A DNA stretch of 64,000 nucleotides from Epichloe hybrida (taxonomy: Eukaryota; Ascomycota; Sordariomycetes; Hypocreales; Clavicipitaceae). Below are positions 1,669 to 62,878 of this stretch, in pieces. Made by a program: the position numbers and the translations under genes. The notes beneath the pieces were generated by a model, which saw only the letters and a list, made by a program, of their open reading frames with translations, was not told the origin of the DNA and did not search any database. Location: contig JAFEKR010000017.1 of the NCBI GenBank assembly GCA_019022495.1, positions 744,001 through 808,000 of the forward strand, given 5' to 3'. How positions within the stretch are numbered: position 1 is the stretch's first letter; every line of letters starts with the position of its first letter.

Positions 1669-3353
1669 ATGGCTAAAATCAAGGGCCGCGCAAAACATTT
1701 CCAAGACCCGGATGAGGTCATTACGCAAGGTAATTGAGAGAGATTAATGCGGACAGAGATCGTGCGAATATCTAATGAATTCTTGTTGTTTCTCTCCTAG
1801 ACTACGATCCGGAATCCAATGCCCTAGCAAGCGATTGTGGCAGTGGCTCCGATGCCAGCGACGATGAGAACTTGGGCACTGAGCACTATGTTTCCGTGGG
1901 CAAAAGCAAGCTGAGGTATAAAGAGAATGTCTCCTTAGGGCCTGAATATAGAGGGTCTCGAGTCAGTCGCTCCGCTTTGGATGAAGATGAAGAGGAAGGT
2001 AATGACGACGAAGGCGCCTACGATGATTCCGACGACGCCGATCTCGAGGCGGACGAGGCTGAGGCAAGCGATTCGGATATCAATAGCAATGATGCACTTG
2101 GTGCGTCCGATGCCGAGCGGTTCAAACGGGGAAGCTCTAAGCCTGCGAATCCTAAGGGGAAGGCAGGTAGACCAACTGCTGCGGATTACATGTCCAACGA
2201 TGAAGATACAATGGAGGATGAGGACGACTCTCGAGAGGACGAAGACATGGATGATGGGCTTGACGCATTGATCGATGGCGGTGCAAGCGGTTCAGAAGGG
2301 GATAACTTAGATGAGGACGAAGATGACGAAGATGATGATGAGAGCGAGGACGAAGAGGACGAAGAGGATTCGGAGAATCCATCCGAAGAAAAAGACGCTT
2401 CGGCCAAACGGGGTGACAACGCGAGACCGAATTTGTCTGCCCTCTCCAATCGAGCAGATGTGGACAAAGGCATTGCCATTCAAAAGCAACGCAAGATATA
2501 CGACGGGCTGCTCAACCTGCGTATCCGCTTGCAAAAGGCTCTTGTAGCGGCGAACTCTTTCCCTACTGTCGAATCTGAATCAGATGCTGAATCAGAGCCC
2601 TACGAAGCTGCCGAGGAGGCTGCTATCAAGCTGCTGAACACTATCAGCAGTCTGCGAGGGAATTTTGGAACACAAGTGAATGCTGGAGCCAAGCGAAAAC
2701 GTGACATAGAAATGTCAATGTCCAACGACGACATTTGGACGCAGTTGCAGGAGGAAGATGAGGCCGCGGCTGGGTATAGGGCAGAACGATTGGAAAAATG
2801 GTCTAAAAAGGTGCAAAGCGTCAACATGATTCAACCCGACCGACTCGGACATCAGAGCAAATCCCTCATCAGCGCTCTCCAGGAACAGCTCATGGTCCCC
2901 GACAACCGGCTCGTCAAACGAACGAGGGTGCCACGCTCTTGTGCCCCTGCTCAACGCTTCCTGAAGGTCACTGAGGACGACTACATCTACGACGATGCCG
3001 ACTTCTACCAGGTCCTTCTTAAGGAGCTCATCGACCAGAGGACCGTCGAAGGCAGCGGCGAACAAGCCACCGCCGTACCGACCGTCGTGGTCACCGCCAG
3101 TAAGGAAGCCAAGCTGCGCAAGCAGGTGGATCGCAAGGCAAGCAAAGGCCGGAAAATGCGTTTCACAGTTCACGAAAAGTTGCAGAACTTCATGGCTCCC
3201 GAGGACAGAAGATGTTGGGAGCAGGGGGCCATCGATCGATTCTTTGGAACTCTGTTTGGTAGAAGGATGGAGCTGAATGAGAATGAGAGCGAGGATGATG
3301 ACAGGGAGGGCATTGACGCAGAGGAGGAGGGATTGAAACTGTTTAGGAGTTGA
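1669..3353 (+). CDS. BFR2: Bfr2/AATF (TRAUB-domain) ribosome biogenesis protein, 2 exons
   Basis: Bfr2 (AATF/Che-1 in animals) is a nucleolar small-subunit processome factor needed for early 18S pre-rRNA cleavage. The start ATG at 1669 lies in the context AAACCATGG. Exon 1 (1669-1729) ends in phase 1; a 71-nt intron (1730-1800, GTAATT...CTCCTAG) leads to exon 2 (1801-3353). The product is 537 residues, close to the yeast protein. Residues about 80-220 are three blocks of Asp/Glu-rich sequence, typical of the family. An AATF-type segment begins near IQKQRKIYDGLLNLR (about 246), and the C-terminal TRAUB domain runs from about DDADFYQVLLKELI (411) to GAIDRFFGTLFGRR. The 1872 ATG is internal; the short first exon restores the conserved KGRAKHFQDPDEV N-terminus. 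It shares its promoter region with IND1. Confidence 0.95.
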
Positions 3354-8166: not shown

Positions 8167-8238
8167 CTCTCCCGCCGGGAATTGAACCCGGGTCTCAAGC
8201 GTGACAAGCTTGCATACTGACCACTATACTACGGAAGA
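8167..8238 (-). tRNA. tRNA-Asp (anticodon GTC)
   Basis: Read on the minus strand, the 72-nt sequence starts TCTTCCG and its 3' arm ends CGGGAGA plus discriminator G, giving a 7-bp acceptor stem with one G-U-type pair. The A box region is GTATAGTGGTCAGT, typical of eukaryotic tRNA-Asp. The anticodon arm CAAGC-TTGTCAC-GCTTG places GTC at the anticodon. The T arm is CGGGTTCAATTCCCG. No intron. The 3' flank has no clean T4 run within the first few bases, so termination is not resolved. Confidence 0.96.
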
Positions 8239-19156: not shown

Positions 19157-19358
19157 TATGAGGCCCTACTCACAACACTAGCGCGCCAGCGTACCACTAG
19201 GCGGGCGCACCACGCCCTAGGGCTAGGTCCACGTAACACTGGCGAGTCACTACCTATAAGTTAGCGACTTGCACGCATAACACACTTAGACCTAGCAAGC
19301 TTTAGTCAATATACGAACGCCCCCATACCTCTTGCCTAGCTATCCCTTTGTTCTCACA
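19157..19358 (+). repeat. 3' LTR of Gyp-A copy 1
   Basis: 202 bp. The inner edge reads TATGAGG (RIPped TGTGAGG), and the outer edge TTCTCACA is intact. It is followed by ATATC. Confidence 0.95.
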
Positions 19359-19363
19359 ATATC

Positions 19364-22300
19364 ATAGGTCTCTTTACCTATCCTTTAATATAAATTATTA
19401 ATTCGTTTAAATTAATCAAAGAGGAAAGTAATAAATTCAGCAATGCTTTTATTATCGCATCTGCTAGATTATTATTGCTGTTAATCCATCTGACTTCGTA
19501 AATCTCATGCCTTTTATACAATTAATAAAGAGCCATAATATTAATTATTAGTCTCTTCTCCTTTATGGTTCCTAGCTTCATAAGACATTTATATAATAAA
19601 AAAGAATTAGTATAAAGAATTATAGGAATTCAAGGCATCTTTAATCAATCCATGATCTAATATAAAGTTATGGAAACTACGTAGGTAATATCTACGCCTT
19701 AAACCATACTATATAACTTAGAGGTAAGCATACTATAAGTAACTCTCTTACTCTTTATTAAGCTATATGTAATAATATTACCTTTTATAATAAAGGTATT
19801 ATTATCTTGCATTATCTCATTACTAATCACAATCACGTATCTAATCTATAAGCTTAAATCCTTATTATTAGCAAGCAATCTATCTACGAACACAAAGAGC
19901 TTTGCCTCCTTAAGGACCAAAGGAATATATCGCAGTCCGCGCTATTAGTTCTCAATCTGCCATTTAAGGCGTTTATTAAGACATATAATATCTTCTATAA
20001 AGGGCTCTTAGTGTTAAGCTGCAATTAAAAGGTTATATAAAGCCTCCAGTTAACACATAGTTATAATATAGCTTCCTCGCGCTTATTACTCTATATAATC
20101 TTGCTTTACTGTTAGGGATTAAGAATTAACTTCCTTAATCTTCTAGCTCTAGCCTTTTTAGGTTAAGATTAGCAAGTTATTAGTGTTTTAGGTTAAGATA
20201 TAGCCATTAAAGATAAGGGGATTCTTAGTAGTTAATTGTTGCTTTTCTTTAGCTATGAAATTAGCCTTCTAGAGCTCTTTCTCTTCTTTTTAAAAGAAGT
20301 TATCATCGCTTAGGCCTAATATATCATTAGTTTGCATTCTAATAATACCAAAGAGGTTCTTATTATTTAGGGCTATGATTAATAAGCAGGGATTATAGGT
20401 TAAAGTTATTATATTAAGGTTATCCCTATAGTAACAGAAGTACATTGCCCACTAGTAAGTTCCGGCCTCTATAATCCTATAAAGAGGTCTAATTAATTTG
20501 ATTATAGTCCCTTCTAGAAAGAGATATATAATTTGCTTTAGCAATCTCACGATAATTAGCCTCGTTAGCACCGTGTGTAATTAAGTGTAGGCTTACGTGA
20601 TATCACAAATCTAAAGGTAAATACCTCTTCTTCTTAATAATAAAGTAATAGCTACAATAAGTTATTAGCTTGCTTATTAAATTATTAGCGATTGCGTTAG
20701 GATGAATTCCTTTCCTTTGTCATTATAGCCTTGTATAATAAGATAAGATTTCTCGTATAGCAAGTCCGTTCCTTTGCCTTTAATCTCTCTAACTATATAA
20801 GAATCAAAGATTCTATAGCCTCTATGCTTCGCTAGGTTAAACTTAATAAATTTAAATATATTATAAGCTTATAAAGCATTAATCTTAGCTTAATTAGATT
20901 ACTTAAAGGGTTTTCCTAGGGTTATAATCTTCCCTTCTTAGCGGAGCTAAAGGGCAAGGTTCTAATTAGCCTCTTCCTTTACTATAAGGAATACTATACT
21001 TAGTATCCCTCTAGTTATAATCTCTTAAATAAAGGCCTTCTCTTAATCTTTATTTATAAGTATATAGAGCTAAACTAGGCTAATGTCCTTCTTAGGGCTA
21101 TAAGGTTTTCTTTTCCTTACTTTTATTCCTTTAGGGCGTAGTAATAAGTCTTTAACTTAATAGCTTCCCCTTAGGGCCTTTTAGGCTTTACAAGCCTCTT
21201 TATTAGACTCTCCCACACTTATAAATTACACTATAAGGGCCTTTCTTAGTCTCCCTTATCTTCTCTTAGCTAGTGTCTACGGCTCTTTACCTTCTTCTAT
21301 TAGAGAATCTCTTTTATTAGTAGTAGTTAGTTATATAGCTTCTCTTTCCTTTACATTACTTAGCTATTACTCTAGCAGATTATAGGGCTTTATCTCCTAC
21401 TACTCTAGCCCCTCTATAATACATAGGTCTTTATAGTAAGGCTTTACTACTATAGAGCAAAACTTTACTAGGCCACAGGGTATATTAATAGTATAAGTCT
21501 CTCTATTAGTAGTAAGCAGCTTATACAAGCTATACTAGCTACCTTTCTCTCTCCATATACATATATTAGCCTATAAGGGCAGCTAATATATAGGCGCTAT
21601 ATTAGGGCCATTCTAGGCTCTAAGGGTATTATAGACCTGCCATAAAGCTAGAAGACATTAGACTTTATCCGTTACCTTACAAATTACCTTAGCATATTAA
21701 ATAACAAAGACACTTAGTAGTAACTTATCTATTATCCATAGGTAGCCTCTAAAGACTAGCATGGTTAGGATAATACTATTTAGGCCTATAAAGTCATTAA
21801 TAGCCTTAATAGCTATTTAGAGGCATTACTCTAGCGTAAGCTCTATTCTAATTAAGTCTATAATAATATTATAGGCTTATTGTAGAGGTCCGTAGTATCT
21901 CTTAACTTTTCCAATGCTATTATAGGCTTTAATCAGTATCTCACCGGTTTTAATTAACATTAATTAAGCATAATACCTAAATTTAGCAGAAGCAAAGTTA
22001 TTACTAGCATCATAGATAATCTAATCTAGAGGTCCAAGATAAGTATCAATCCAACATTCACGGATTACGTCCTAGATATCTCAAGCCTTTTGCTTCTTTA
22101 GATTAAGGAATTAGGCTACTTAGAATAAGGTTACTAAATCAATAATATAAAGCACTAGTTAGCTATTGATTTACATAATATTAATAATAATCTCATAGTT
22201 AAATTCATAGTTATCTTTAATTATAAACTTAAATTAACCAGGGGCCTTTCTATGTATCTAGGAATAGTAGCAGACTTTAGTTAATTCCTTAATTACCTAG

Positions 22301-38034: not shown

Positions 38035-41000
38035 CTAGTAATCTCTCTTTTTCCTTTATAGCTAAAGAGCTTAAAAATGTAATAAAAATTAGATTAAAGG
38101 AAAGTATACACTAGTAAATCCCTTAATAGGAATCCGCTGCTCTGATTAGCTATTACGGTATTAGTTAATTAAATTAATTTATTAGTCCTTGCCTAAGCTC
38201 CTGTCTCCTAATATTATAAGTCTCTTTACCTATCCTTTAACATAAATCATTAATTTGTTTAAATTAATTAAAGAGGAAAGTAATAAATTTAGTAATGCTT
38301 TTGTTATTACATCCGCTAGATTATTATTGCTATTAATCCATCTAACTTCATAGATCTTATACCTTTTGTATAATTAATAAAGGGCTATAATATTAATCAT
38401 TAGTCTCTTCTCCTTTATAGTTCCTAGCTTTATAAGATATTTATATAATAAAAAAGAATTAGTATAAAGAATCATAGGAATTTAAGGTATCTTTAATTAA
38501 TCCGTGATCTAATATAGAGTTATGGAAATCGCGTAGGTAATATCTGCGCCTTAAACTATATTATATAACTCGGAGGCAAGCGCGCTACACGTAACTCTCT
38601 TGCTCTTTGTTAAGCTATACGTAATAATATTACCTTTTATAATAAAGGTATTGTTATCTTACATTATCTCGTTACTAATTATAATTACATATCTGATCTA
38701 TGAGCTTAAATCCTTGTTATTAGTAAGCGATCTATCTATAAACACGAAGAGCTTTACCTCTTTAAGAACTAAAGGAATGTATTATAGTCCGCGTTATTAA
38801 TTCTTAATCTGCTACTTAAGGCGTTTATTAAGGTATATAATATTTTCCCTAGAGGGTTCTTAGTGTTAAGCTATAATTAATAGGTCGTAGGAAGCTTCTA
38901 GTTAACACATAGTTACGATATAGCTTCCTTAGGCTTATTATTCTATGTAGTCTTACTTTGCTATTAGGGATTAAGGATTAACTTCCTTAATCTTCTAGCT
39001 CTAGCCTTTTTAGGTTAATATTAGTAAGTTATTAGTGTTCTAGGTTAAGATATAGCTGTTGAAGATAAGGGGATTCTTAGCGGTTAATTATTACTTTTCT
39101 TTAGCTATGAAATTAGCCTTCTAGAGCTCTTTCTCTTCTTTTTAGAAGAAGTTATTATTACTTAGGCCTAATATATCATTAGTTTGTATTCTAATGATGC
39201 TAAAGAGGTTCTTATTATTCAGAGCTATGATTAATAAGCAGGGATTGTAGGTTAAAGTCGTTATATTGAGGTTATCCCTGTGGTGACGGAAGTATATTGC
39301 CTACTAGTAGGTTCTGGCCTTTGTAATCCTATAAAGAGGTTTAATTAATTTAATTACAGTCCCTTCTAGAAAGAGATATGTAATTTGCTTTAGTAATTTC
39401 ATAATAATTAGCCTCGTTAGTACTATGTGCGATTAGGTGTAAGCTTATGTGATATCGCGAATCCAAAGGTAAATACCTTTTCTTTTTAATAATAAAGTAA
39501 TAGCTATAATAAGGCGTTGGCTTGCTTGTTATATTGTTAGCGATTGCGTTAGGATAAATTCCTTTCCTTTGTTATTATAGCCTTATATAATAAGATAAGA
39601 TTTCTTGTACGGCGAGTCCGTTCCTTTGCCTTTAATCTCTCTAACTATACAAGAATTGAAGATTCTATGGCCTCCGTGCTTCGCTAGGTTAAACTTAATA
39701 AATTTAAATATATTATAAGCTTGTAAAGCATTAATCTTAGCTTAATTAGACTACTTAAAGGGTTTTCCTAGGGTTATAATCCTTCCTTCTTAGTAAAGCT
39801 AAAGGGTAAGGTTCTAATTAGCCTTTTCCTTTGCTATAAGGAATACTATACTTAGTATCCCTCTGGTTATAATCTCTTAAATAAAGGCCTCCTCTTAATC
39901 TTTATTTATAAGTACGTAAAGCTAAACTAGGCTAACGTCCTTCTTAGGGCTATAGGGTCTTCTTTTCCTTACTTTTATTCCTTTAGGGTATAGTAACAAG
40001 TCTTTAACTTAATAGCTTCCTTTAGGGTGTAGTAATAAGTCTTTAACTTAATGGCTTCCCCTTAGGGCCTTTTAGGCTTTATAAGCCTCTTTATTAGACT
40101 CTCCTACACTTATAAATTACACTATAAGGGCCTTTCTTAGTCTCCCTTGCTTTCTCTTAGCTAGTGCCTGCGGCTCTTTGCCTTCTTCTATTAAAGGATC
40201 TCTTTTATTAGTAGTAGTTAGTTATATAATTACTTCTTTCTCTATGTTATTAGGCTTTATCTCTTACTACTCCGGCGTGTTATAGGGTTTTATCTCCTTT
40301 TACTCTAGTCCCTCTATATTATATAAGTCTTTATAATAGGGCTTTACTACTATAGAGTAGAACTTTACTAGGCTATAGGGTATGTTAATAGTATAGGTCT
40401 CTTTATTAGTAGTAAGTAGCTTATATAGGCTATACTAGCTACCTTTCTCTCTTTATATATATATATTAGCCTGCAGGGGTAGCTAATATATAGGCACTAT
40501 ATTAGGGCCATTTTGGGCTTTAAGGGTATTATAGACTTGCCGCAAAGCTAGGTAGTAGCGGACTTTATTAGTGGCTTTATAAATTACTTTAGTATATTAA
40601 ATAATAGAGATGCTTAGTAGTAACTTATCTATTATTTATAGGTAGCCTCTGAAAACTAGTATAGTTAGGATAATACTATTTAGGCTTATAGAGTTATTAA
40701 TTACCTTAATAGCTATTTAGAGATGTTGCTCTAGCGTGAGCTCTGTTCTAATTAAGTCTATGATAATATTATAGGCTTGGCGTAGAGGTCTGTAGTATCT
40801 CTTAACCTTTCTAATACTATTATAAGCTTTAATTAGCATCTTACTGGTTTTAATTAATATTAATTAAGCATAATACCTAAATTTAGCGGAAGCAAAGTTA
40901 TTACTAGCATTATAGATGATCTAATCTGGAGGTCTGAGATAAGTATTAATCTAATATTCGCGGATTGTATCCTAGATATCTTAAGCCTTTTACTTCTTTA

Positions 41001-49434: not shown

Positions 49435-49439
49435 AATAG

Positions 49440-49520
49440 TGTTGAAATCAAAAGAGTGGACCAATCCAACTGAACCTAGGATTACAAAGCCTTATATATT
49501 TTTAACAATATATTTTAACA
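49440..49520 (-). repeat. 3' LTR of the miniature element
   Basis: 81 bp. In minus orientation it contains TATATAAGGC, a TATA-box-like motif. It differs from its partner by A/G at 49,463. Confidence 0.93.
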
Positions 49521-49528
49521 CTCCCCCT
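49521..49528 (-). promoter_or_regulatory. Polypurine tract of the miniature element
   Basis: AGGGGGAG on the minus strand, abutting the 3' LTR. This is the expected place for plus-strand priming in an LTR element. Confidence 0.8.
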
Positions 49529-49594
49529 GGAATTGTATATCCAGGTGCCCTATTGGAGGTTAGGCTTATACTAGCAATTGAATTTCTTTAGTTG

Positions 49595-49701
49595 TTTTTT
49601 TTTTTTCGGCAGGGTTCGAACCCATAACCTTGCCTCGCAGAGCAGTGCTCTACTGTGGTGGGCGGGCTAATACGCTACAGTGAGCCACAACCACTGCGCC
49701 A
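49595..49701 (-). ncRNA. tRNA-like (SINE-like) cassette with Pol III A and B boxes inside the miniature element
   Basis: On the minus strand TGGCGCAGTGG (49,701-49,691) matches the Pol III A box, and identical bases occur in eukaryotic initiator tRNA-Met. GGTTCGAACCC (about 49,622-49,612) matches the B box. About 68 nt separate them, somewhat more than in a plain tRNA. TGCCG and an A12 run (49,606-49,595) follow. No complete cloverleaf acceptor stem forms, so it is not a functional tRNA. It looks like a SINE head with its oligo(A) tail or a captured tRNA relative. Whether it is transcribed is unknown. Confidence 0.65.
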
Positions 49702-49715
49702 CTGGGCTCATAACC
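49701..49715 (-). promoter_or_regulatory. Primer-binding site of the miniature element
   Basis: GGTTATGAGCCCAGT adjoins the 5' LTR. It is the reverse complement of ACTGGGCTCATAACC, the initiator tRNA-Met anticodon arm up to about position 39. Priming from such a half-tRNA is known for copia. Confidence 0.8.
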
Positions 49716-49796
49716 TGTTGAAATCAAAAGAGTGGACCGATCCAACTGAACCTAGGATTACAAAGCCTTATATATTTTTAACAATATATTTTAACA
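49716..49796 (-). repeat. 5' LTR of the miniature element
   Basis: 81 bp, 80 identical to the 3' LTR, followed on the right by the AATAG duplication. Confidence 0.93.
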
Positions 49797-50096
49797 AATA
49801 GTAATGATAATCCGGTAAACGCAATGACTAAATTATCGCTGAATTTATTACTTTCCTCTTTAATTAATTTAAACGAATTAATAATTTGTGTTAAAGGATA
49901 GGTGAAGAGACCTGTAATATTAGGAGACAGGAGCTTAGGTAAGGACTAATAGATTAATTTAATTAACTAATACCGTGATGGCTAATTAGAGTAGCGGATT
50001 CCCATTAAGGGATTTACTAGTGTATACTTTCCTTTAATCTAATTTTTATTACGTTTTTAAGCTCTTTAGCTACGAAGGAAAAAGAGAGATTACTAG

Positions 50097-62034: not shown

Positions 62035-62595
62035 TATTGAAATGTAGGGAGCTAGTTGCCAGCTGGCAACAGCTGTACAGGTGCAAGCTCTACGGTCGGG
62101 GACCAATAGGGCTGCAACGTTGAATCAATCAACGCAACGCAACGGAAGGTTGTGGCAGTTATTAACTAATAGAATTCAATTTAGATCACTTTTATGATAT
62201 CTTATAGAGCAATAGAATTGATTTTAGATACGTTGTACGGGCAATGCGGCTGTTGTTGGTTGAGAGGACTAGCTATCTAGCTAGTTGAAAAGATCTTCTT
62301 CCTCTCATAGACCTACCGACCGTATCGGTGGATCCGGGCCGCCAACGGGGTCTTACGGGCCACTTTTGATTTTCCGCAAAATTCATTTGTATGCAAAAAC
62401 CAAAAAATCGACTCACCACCATACTAGCTAGCAACCCGTATGCACCAACTTTTGGTCCAAAAAATAACCTTGCATAAAGAGAAGCCCTATCTTCAAGCTT
62501 CAATTTGCTATATGTAAAACTTTTGTACGACCTCTAGATAAAGAGAAAATCGTTGTCAAAGATAGCTATAGGGTAAGTTATGTGTAGGGTAACCT

Positions 62596-62634
62596 GCTTA
62601 CGTCACCCTAGCTTACGTCACCCTAGCTTACCTA
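62596..62634. repeat. 15-bp tandem repeat, 2.6 copies
   Basis: GCTTACGTCACCCTA occurs at 62,596 and 62,611, then partial GCTTACCTA. Each full unit contains TTACGTCA, a CRE-like octamer. It lies inside the 844-bp segment. Confidence 0.9.
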
Positions 62635-62716
62635 ATTACTAGTGGCGTGGTTGTAGCCACACTTGCAGCCACAACGCAATTGACTAATTAGTCATCCACA
62701 CGGTCGGTCGCAGCTG

Positions 62717-62805
62717 TTGACAGCTGCGACGCAGCCATTGACAGCTGCGACGCAGCCATTGACAGCTGCCCTCGCGACCGTTGACAGCTGCAGTGCAGCT
62801 GTCAG
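62717..62805. repeat. 21-bp tandem repeat with CAGCTG cores, four copies
   Basis: Two perfect copies of TTGACAGCTGCGACGCAGCC(A) at 62,717 and 62,738, then two diverged copies at 62,759 and 62,781. The core CAGCTG is an E-box palindrome. It lies inside the 844-bp segment. Confidence 0.92.
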
Positions 62806-62878
62806 ACTTGCAAAGCAAGCTAGTAATAAGAAGGTTCTTTAACTAGAAAAGGGCTAAAAATAGGTCTTATTTTTAACA

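Follow-up and report, generated by a model that had tools for sequence, protein, structure and literature searches.

A short TRIM-type element with an internal tRNA-like cassette in Epichloe hybrida and its candidate Copia partner

How could a non-coding LTR element of 357 bp multiply in a fungal genome with RIP-type mutation, and would its transcript start in the LTR or at the tRNA-like cassette that it carries inside? The question is raised by one insertion in a stretch of 64,000 nucleotides from Epichloe hybrida, the whole of which is called the window here. A preliminary description of this DNA had proposed a miniature, non-autonomous LTR element with a Pol III cassette, short enough to evade RIP.

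Anatomy of the window copy

The insertion, here named mini, has the following parts in the window.

49440..49796, minus strand: whole element, TRIM-type, 357 bp
49716..49796, minus strand: 5' LTR (LTR-A, 81 bp), direct repeat
49440..49520, minus strand: 3' LTR (LTR-A, 81 bp), direct repeat
49435..49439: left copy of the duplication AATAG, read directly
49797..49801: right copy of the duplication AATAG, read directly
49768..49774, minus strand: TATATAA in the 5' LTR, read directly; a possible Pol II TATA box
49702..49715, minus strand: primer-binding site (PBS) GGTTATGAGCCCAG, complement of the Met-tRNA anticodon arm
49691..49701, minus strand: A-box-like TGGCGCAGTGG, directly adjoining the PBS
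49612..49622, minus strand: B-box-like GGTTCGAACCC, motif match
49595..49606, minus strand: A12 tract, of differing length between copies
49521..49530, minus strand: polypurine tract (PPT) CCAGGGGGAG, read directly, abutting the 3' LTR at 49521

The 81-bp LTRs with a single mismatch (80/81 identical) and the AATAG duplication are as originally described, coordinates included, and the A box, B box, oligo(A) and PPT ascribed to an internal part of 195 bp were all located. The minus strand is an addition; read on it, the order is LTR, PBS, A box, B box, A12, tail, PPT and LTR. The non-autonomous LTR frame also stands, as LTRs, PBS and PPT are all present within 357 bp.

The proposed half-tRNA priming by initiator tRNA-Met agrees with the complementarity of the PBS to the Met-tRNA anticodon arm. 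The commonest form of the PBS in the family, GGTTATGAGCCCGG, is the complement of CCGGGCTCATAACC, and GGGCTCATAACC was found in a Met-tRNA-like context at four genome loci; GATCGAAAC downstream of GGGCTCATAACC is what we take to be the mark of an initiator tRNA. By itself, the PBS motif is not beyond chance in the window, where GGTTATGAGCCCRG with up to two mismatches has one match (shuffle mean 0.49; at least one match in 40/100 shuffles). Joined to the LTR end (24 nt, up to three mismatches), it has 185 sites in the genome and none with the reversed control.

The description of the cassette as tRNA-like could be kept only in part. The window has a single case of an A box with a B box 30-95 nt behind it, and 0/60 order-1 simulated windows have one; however, ARAGORN found no tRNA in the cassette, Rfam with E allowed up to 1 gave none either, and the fold does not stand out (z -0.83). 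The two boxes are all that is tRNA-like about it.

Copies in the genome and a candidate partner

The searches covered 79.9 Mb, presumably about twice the usual haploid Epichloë genome and perhaps that of a hybrid. With the whole element, at least 56 matches were obtained (40 of the 127 candidates were scored), and a RIP-tolerant pattern of LTR, PBS and cassette hit 126 genome sites (control 0); the pattern of the cassette core hit 127. Among 100 listed cores, 88 lie at most 140 bp downstream of a PBS site, counted against 100 listed sites of the 126 and 10 more from other searches. When the best 30 of the 185 LTR-end/PBS sites were fetched, the cassette followed in 25 and a Copia leader in 5. 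This 25/30, obtained with a pattern of LTR and PBS only, is the fair figure for the presence of the cassette; the count of 63/63 units was rejected as evidence, because these units had been chosen for having it. The 126 sites and the 25/30 bear out the many-copy family that had been claimed.

Loci L001-L091 were merged into 48 regions (160,288 bases), in a sample that, like the 30 sites above, favours well-preserved copies, and a mini LTR is the first element feature in 41 of the 48. A perfect 5-bp duplication was found at 39 of the 41 loci beginning with LTR-A, those of C112 and C66:960002 being read from the flanks in another register than that of the script. At one of the two exceptions, C73:400917, the 5' LTR abuts the purine tract of a further unit; at the other, C80:1507000, the sequence covered stops short of the 3' end. 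Two insertions occur with the same flanks on two contigs each (L058/L072 at C77:47731 and C85:609367; L046/L041 at C69:3148703 and C8:34017). Both pairs are duplicated or homeologous regions with one insertion each, so that the independent cases of duplication number 37. The genome search for further copies, proposed beforehand, thus found them together with their duplications. The LTRs are 81 or 67 bp long, and among 20 equal-length pairs from single copies 6 are identical, 9 have one difference, 4 have two and 1 has three.

At 191 genome sites (control 0), the LTR end and PBS of mini lead into a Copia leader. A bounded Copia copy at C91:1692574-1699693 (7,120 bp) has the duplication ATAAC, AGAGGGGG just before its 3' LTR and a match to RVT_2 at C91:1697171-1697926. 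Of the 100 listed leader sites, 55 have Copia reverse transcriptase (RT; RVT_2) at a distance of 3.70-3.83 kb downstream (137 of 167 RT matches were used); as some of the matches are free of stops, there are intact RT regions. RVT_2 and the 5-bp duplication place this element in the Copia superfamily. Its LTR (LTR-B), 801-844 bp in eight copies without insertion, has only the tips TGTTAAAA and ATTTCAACA in common with LTR-A. The similarity score of the two LTRs is 11.0 against a shuffle maximum of 13.5; the tip similarity is not beyond chance, and the link to the partner is therefore drawn from the PBS, the duplication length and the hybrids described below. A Copia with the LTR ends and PBS of mini, which the preliminary description had proposed to look for, was accordingly found with the same tips and PBS, but its LTR is otherwise different and about 800 bp long. 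No similarity was seen between the mini tail and the Copia pieces compared, which exclude the Copia 3' internal end, and there might be four further LTR families that use this PBS. The window itself contains one LTR of this kind, with no matching 5-bp duplication at its ends:

62035..62878, minus strand: solo LTR-B, probably of the Copia partner; differs from a clean copy by 4 changes to TA

Hybrids, tandem arrays and the route of transposition

Mini and its partner differ in almost the whole LTR, and hybrids between them can therefore be recognised at sight. C1:4645929 reads LTR-B/core/LTR-A with ATTAC on both sides, and C35:659719 reads LTR-B/core/LTR-A/core/LTR-A with GAACC on both sides. 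The order LTR-B/core/LTR-A/PBS/Copia leader is found at C35:1328553, C74:32087, C80:777841 and L096 (where only the end of LTR-B is covered), and with a shortened LTR-B at C1:3128389. A further copy, C80:1511943, reads LTR-A/PBS/Copia leader; at its predicted 3' end no LTR was found in 11 kb downstream, and Pfam detected no retrotransposon domain in ten frame pieces, whereas the genome search with the RVT_2 profile found matches where Pfam frame pieces gave none. The hybrids with clean duplications suggest shared reverse transcription of mini and Copia. The simplest origin of LTR-B/core/LTR-A would be a plus strand started on Copia DNA and completed on mini DNA via the shared PBS.

It is proposed, with a probability that we put at about 0.78, that a Pol II-made mini RNA is primed by initiator tRNA and mobilised in trans by Copia, and that hybrids come from exchange at the PBS and mixed arrays from the joining of DNAs. 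The model starts from what is observed of anatomy, copy number, duplications, hybrids, mixed arrays and the fixed distance of Copia RT from the PBS; the LTR promoter, the mobilisation in trans and the exchange at the PBS are what we infer. Pol II would most likely transcribe the RNA from the very short LTR (67-81 bp, with TATATAA inside), and the 5' half of initiator tRNA-Met would prime it. Proteins of the 7.1-kb Copia, a candidate by its shared tips, PBS and hybrids, would then reverse transcribe and insert it. If both RNAs were packed in one particle, DNA started on one could switch at the shared PBS and be completed on the other, and such exchange would give LTR-B/mini core/LTR-A hybrids, while the joining of DNAs from different mini copies, before insertion or during it, would give mixed tandem arrays. 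The hybrids would thereby form a natural record of shared reverse transcription and cDNA joining that could be counted across strains.

Nine loci are arrays of 2-4 cores with shared LTRs. Seven of them mix subtypes, which are told apart by insertions and deletions; one subtype label also responds to a motif altered by RIP, and the seven stand after an alignment check. The nearest relative lies at another locus for 22/22 array units, by distances that include RIP-type changes and gaps; one unit is tied with its sibling to three decimals, and none is clearly closest to a sibling. Eight of the nine arrays have one matching duplication around the whole array (measured from LTR-B at C35:659719). 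It follows from the nearest relatives elsewhere that the arrays are not plain local duplications, and from these together with the single outer duplication that they were built from different copies. LTR exchange between chromosomal copies after insertion would account for the LTRs shared in every array, and it is known for TRIMs and Cassandra according to the available parts of PMC4717578 and PMC7215508; however, it is made unlikely by the duplications that enclose eight whole arrays and by the lack of units (0/22) with a sibling as their clear nearest relative. The pattern fits the joining of different cDNAs before insertion, or cDNA recombination into a resident copy, better than exchange between chromosomal copies that leaves the ends unmatched, and gene conversion may also have played a part. 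Two arrays have features of their own. The four-unit array L026 (C1:3267834-3271201) has a single subtype and RIP-type changes in 11-17/32 columns, more than the other arrays. In the two-core array L023 (C80:1360259-1363613), which adjoins Copia-like sequence, the first core starts exactly at the A box, with neither PBS nor 5' LTR, and a matching duplication was not found.

The cassette could be an independent SINE that sits in some copies by chance, as boxes followed by oligo(A) look SINE-like and 12 of the 100 listed cores have no listed PBS within 140 bp. However, it was at the same place in 25 of the 30 sites fetched by LTR and PBS, the 127 cores are close in number to the 126 sites with PBS and cassette, and the two that were read among the 12 PBS-less cores are truncated element copies. 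SINEs are defined by non-LTR machinery and the absence of LTRs; mini has LTRs, PBS, PPT and fixed 5-bp duplications. Chance residence of a SINE is thus highly improbable, and a SINE may be the remote origin of the cassette.

Hardly more credible is Pol III as the main promoter, with an RNA starting at the cassette as the transposition intermediate. It is favoured by the correct order and spacing of the boxes, by the A box having fewer non-RIP substitutions than any other segment (0.09 per column in 63 units) and by relatives with Pol III boxes, among them the TRIMp3 groups, for which Pol III is proposed as the main promoter in the available part of PMC10886601. The B box, with 1.36 such substitutions per column in the same units, is not specially conserved; as the copies are young, no long-term constraint can be read from these rates. 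For the first strand transfer, an LTR upstream of the PBS is needed. Because the cassette is internal, a Pol III RNA of a single copy would have its start near the PBS and be without this LTR. T4 is present in the 3' LTR of 63/63 units, and T5 separates the boxes in two insertions, at different loci and with different duplications, which argues against dependence on Pol III. These two, L019 (C67:807708) and L020 (C70:151061), are separate insertions of a common subtype. The cassette is a standing part of the mini family, and its putative Pol III promoter is probably not needed for transposition under the favoured Pol II model.

In tandem arrays, the cassette might conceivably offer a second, Pol III-driven route, a speculation to which we give a very slim chance in all its steps. 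The A box sits 14 nt into the core, so that Pol III initiation would fall roughly on the LTR/PBS border, and the transcript would have the order PBS-core-LTR-PBS, the genome in circular permutation. From a primer at the second PBS, the LTR and core would be copied back to the first PBS, to which the plus strand from the purine tract could then jump. Complete LTR-core-LTR DNA would result with neither a first strand transfer nor a Pol II promoter, and, were this true, arrays and cassette would sustain each other.

Related elements and RIP-type mutation

The mini family is a new TRIM family with an unusual layout. Its TRIM features are two LTRs, PBS and PPT, less than 1000 bp (here 357 bp), no proteins, and short duplications, 5 bp at 39 of 41 loci. 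The closest known systems are Helenus, Ajax and TRIMp3, as far as the available part of PMC10886601 extends. Helenus is a TRIM with tRNA-like sequence in its LTRs (PMC10886601; Kojima, 2024). According to the same part of this source, it is, like mini, short and non-coding with tRNA-like A and B boxes; in fungi it has 5-bp duplications and mostly an initiator-Met anticodon-arm PBS, and Copia is the likely driver, with a common PBS and differing LTRs. Mini shares the 5-bp duplication and the Copia-like PBS with fungal Helenus; however, it falls outside the definition, since the Helenus boxes are in the LTR and those of mini are internal, directly after the PBS. Other differences are the mini LTR of 67-81 bp with its TATA-like motif, and the host: the fungal Helenus hosts listed in that part are Basidiomycota, whereas an ascomycete with RIP-type mutation is now added to the hosts of TRIMs with Pol III boxes.

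The remaining comparisons also refer to the available parts of the sources. Cassandra and Ajax are TRIMs whose LTR contains a 5S-rRNA promoter; they resemble mini in having a Pol III-type promoter sequence inside a TRIM, but that sequence is of 5S type and in the LTR, not tRNA-like and internal (PMC10886601; PMC7215508). Cassandra also forms tandem arrays with shared LTRs, whose units are described as alike, unlike the mixed units of mini arrays (PMC7215508). Plant TRIM/SMART elements are similar in size, in the gene-free LTR-PBS-PPT-LTR frame, in having LTR-element partners (theirs Copia or Gypsy) and in their arrays, e.g., three LTRs with two internal parts; they differ in that no tRNA-like cassette is described and that some partners share most of the LTR, compared with the tips only in mini and Copia (PMC4717578). 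The crapaud element of Podospora is another LTR element in a RIP fungus, and its copies with two LTRs of different subfamilies, for which co-packaging was considered, recall the hybrids; there the difference lies between subfamily LTRs within one element, and in mini there would be exchange with a partner at the PBS (PMC10787394). An internal cassette like that of mini is not described in the available parts of PMC10886601, PMC4717578, PMC7215508, PMC12543289 and PMC10787394 or in the further literature covered, which included few subscription journals; nor was anything on the mini family found in the Epichloë transposon literature of the same coverage.

The preliminary description regarded the element as unmutated, which is roughly true of the window copy (7 of 32 RIP-able internal columns in the TA state, compared with 5/32 in the cleanest units), and as shorter than the length limit of RIP and escaping it for this reason. 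The latter claim could not be upheld. Escape is consistent with a higher GC (median 0.414 in elements vs 0.312 in flanks) and a lower TpA/ApT (1.19 vs 1.68) at 40 loci, although both are explained by the elements having entered old repeats recently. The length usually required for RIP is about 400 bp, but repeats as small as 150 bp are hit, both according to the available part of PMC10787394. Among the sites listed, three CA/TG positions at the LTR-end/PBS are intact in 53/92 mini vs 11/100 Copia sites. This matched-site test was rejected as proof because the gap is mostly due to one position, T in 86/100 listed Copia sites, which may be a family difference; the other two are mutated in 24/100 and 30/100 listed Copia vs 17/92 and 18/92 listed mini sites.

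RIP-type changes are, moreover, the main class in single copies. In 34 single cores, compared with the cleanest copy as reference and with the variable middle left out, 124 of the 163 substitutions are RIP-type changes to TA, the rest being 33 transitions of other kinds and 6 transversions, and CA and TG sites make up 27 of the 99 C/G positions of the reference core. In the single copy L097, mutation has reached 21 of the 32 RIP-able columns. Eight LTR-B copies carry 4 to 80 changes to TA in about 800 bp against one clean copy; young LTR-B copies of 801-844 bp are equally clean (4 and 5 changes), and young hybrids of 1.2-1.4 kb are as clean as minis. Long and short pieces are thus both clean and both mutated, so that escape by length, which we regard as rather improbable, is not needed. 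Clean copies, whatever their length, are accounted for by recent insertion, perhaps in an asexual lineage; in AT-rich fungal DNA, an age-matched control is needed before such copies are taken for cases of RIP escape.

Insertion into an older, already mutated repeat, as first suggested, is supported by two uninterrupted relatives of this repeat in the window:

38180..38479, minus strand: uninterrupted (empty-site) relative of the host repeat, with 87% when the two flanks are joined
19352..19627, minus strand: second uninterrupted relative, with 86% in the same comparison

They differ from the host copy mainly by RIP-type changes (29/44 and 29/46). The host repeat had been named Cop-B; Pfam gave no retrotransposon match for three frame pieces flanking mini. 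Elsewhere in the window, a BFR2-like gene is located in its GC-richer start (1872-3353, plus strand); its protein frame matches Epichloë bromicola at 92% identity, E. festucae at 87% and one further hit at 96%, which marks the genome as Epichloë-like. A tRNA-Asp (GTC) gene is located at 8167-8238 on the minus strand.
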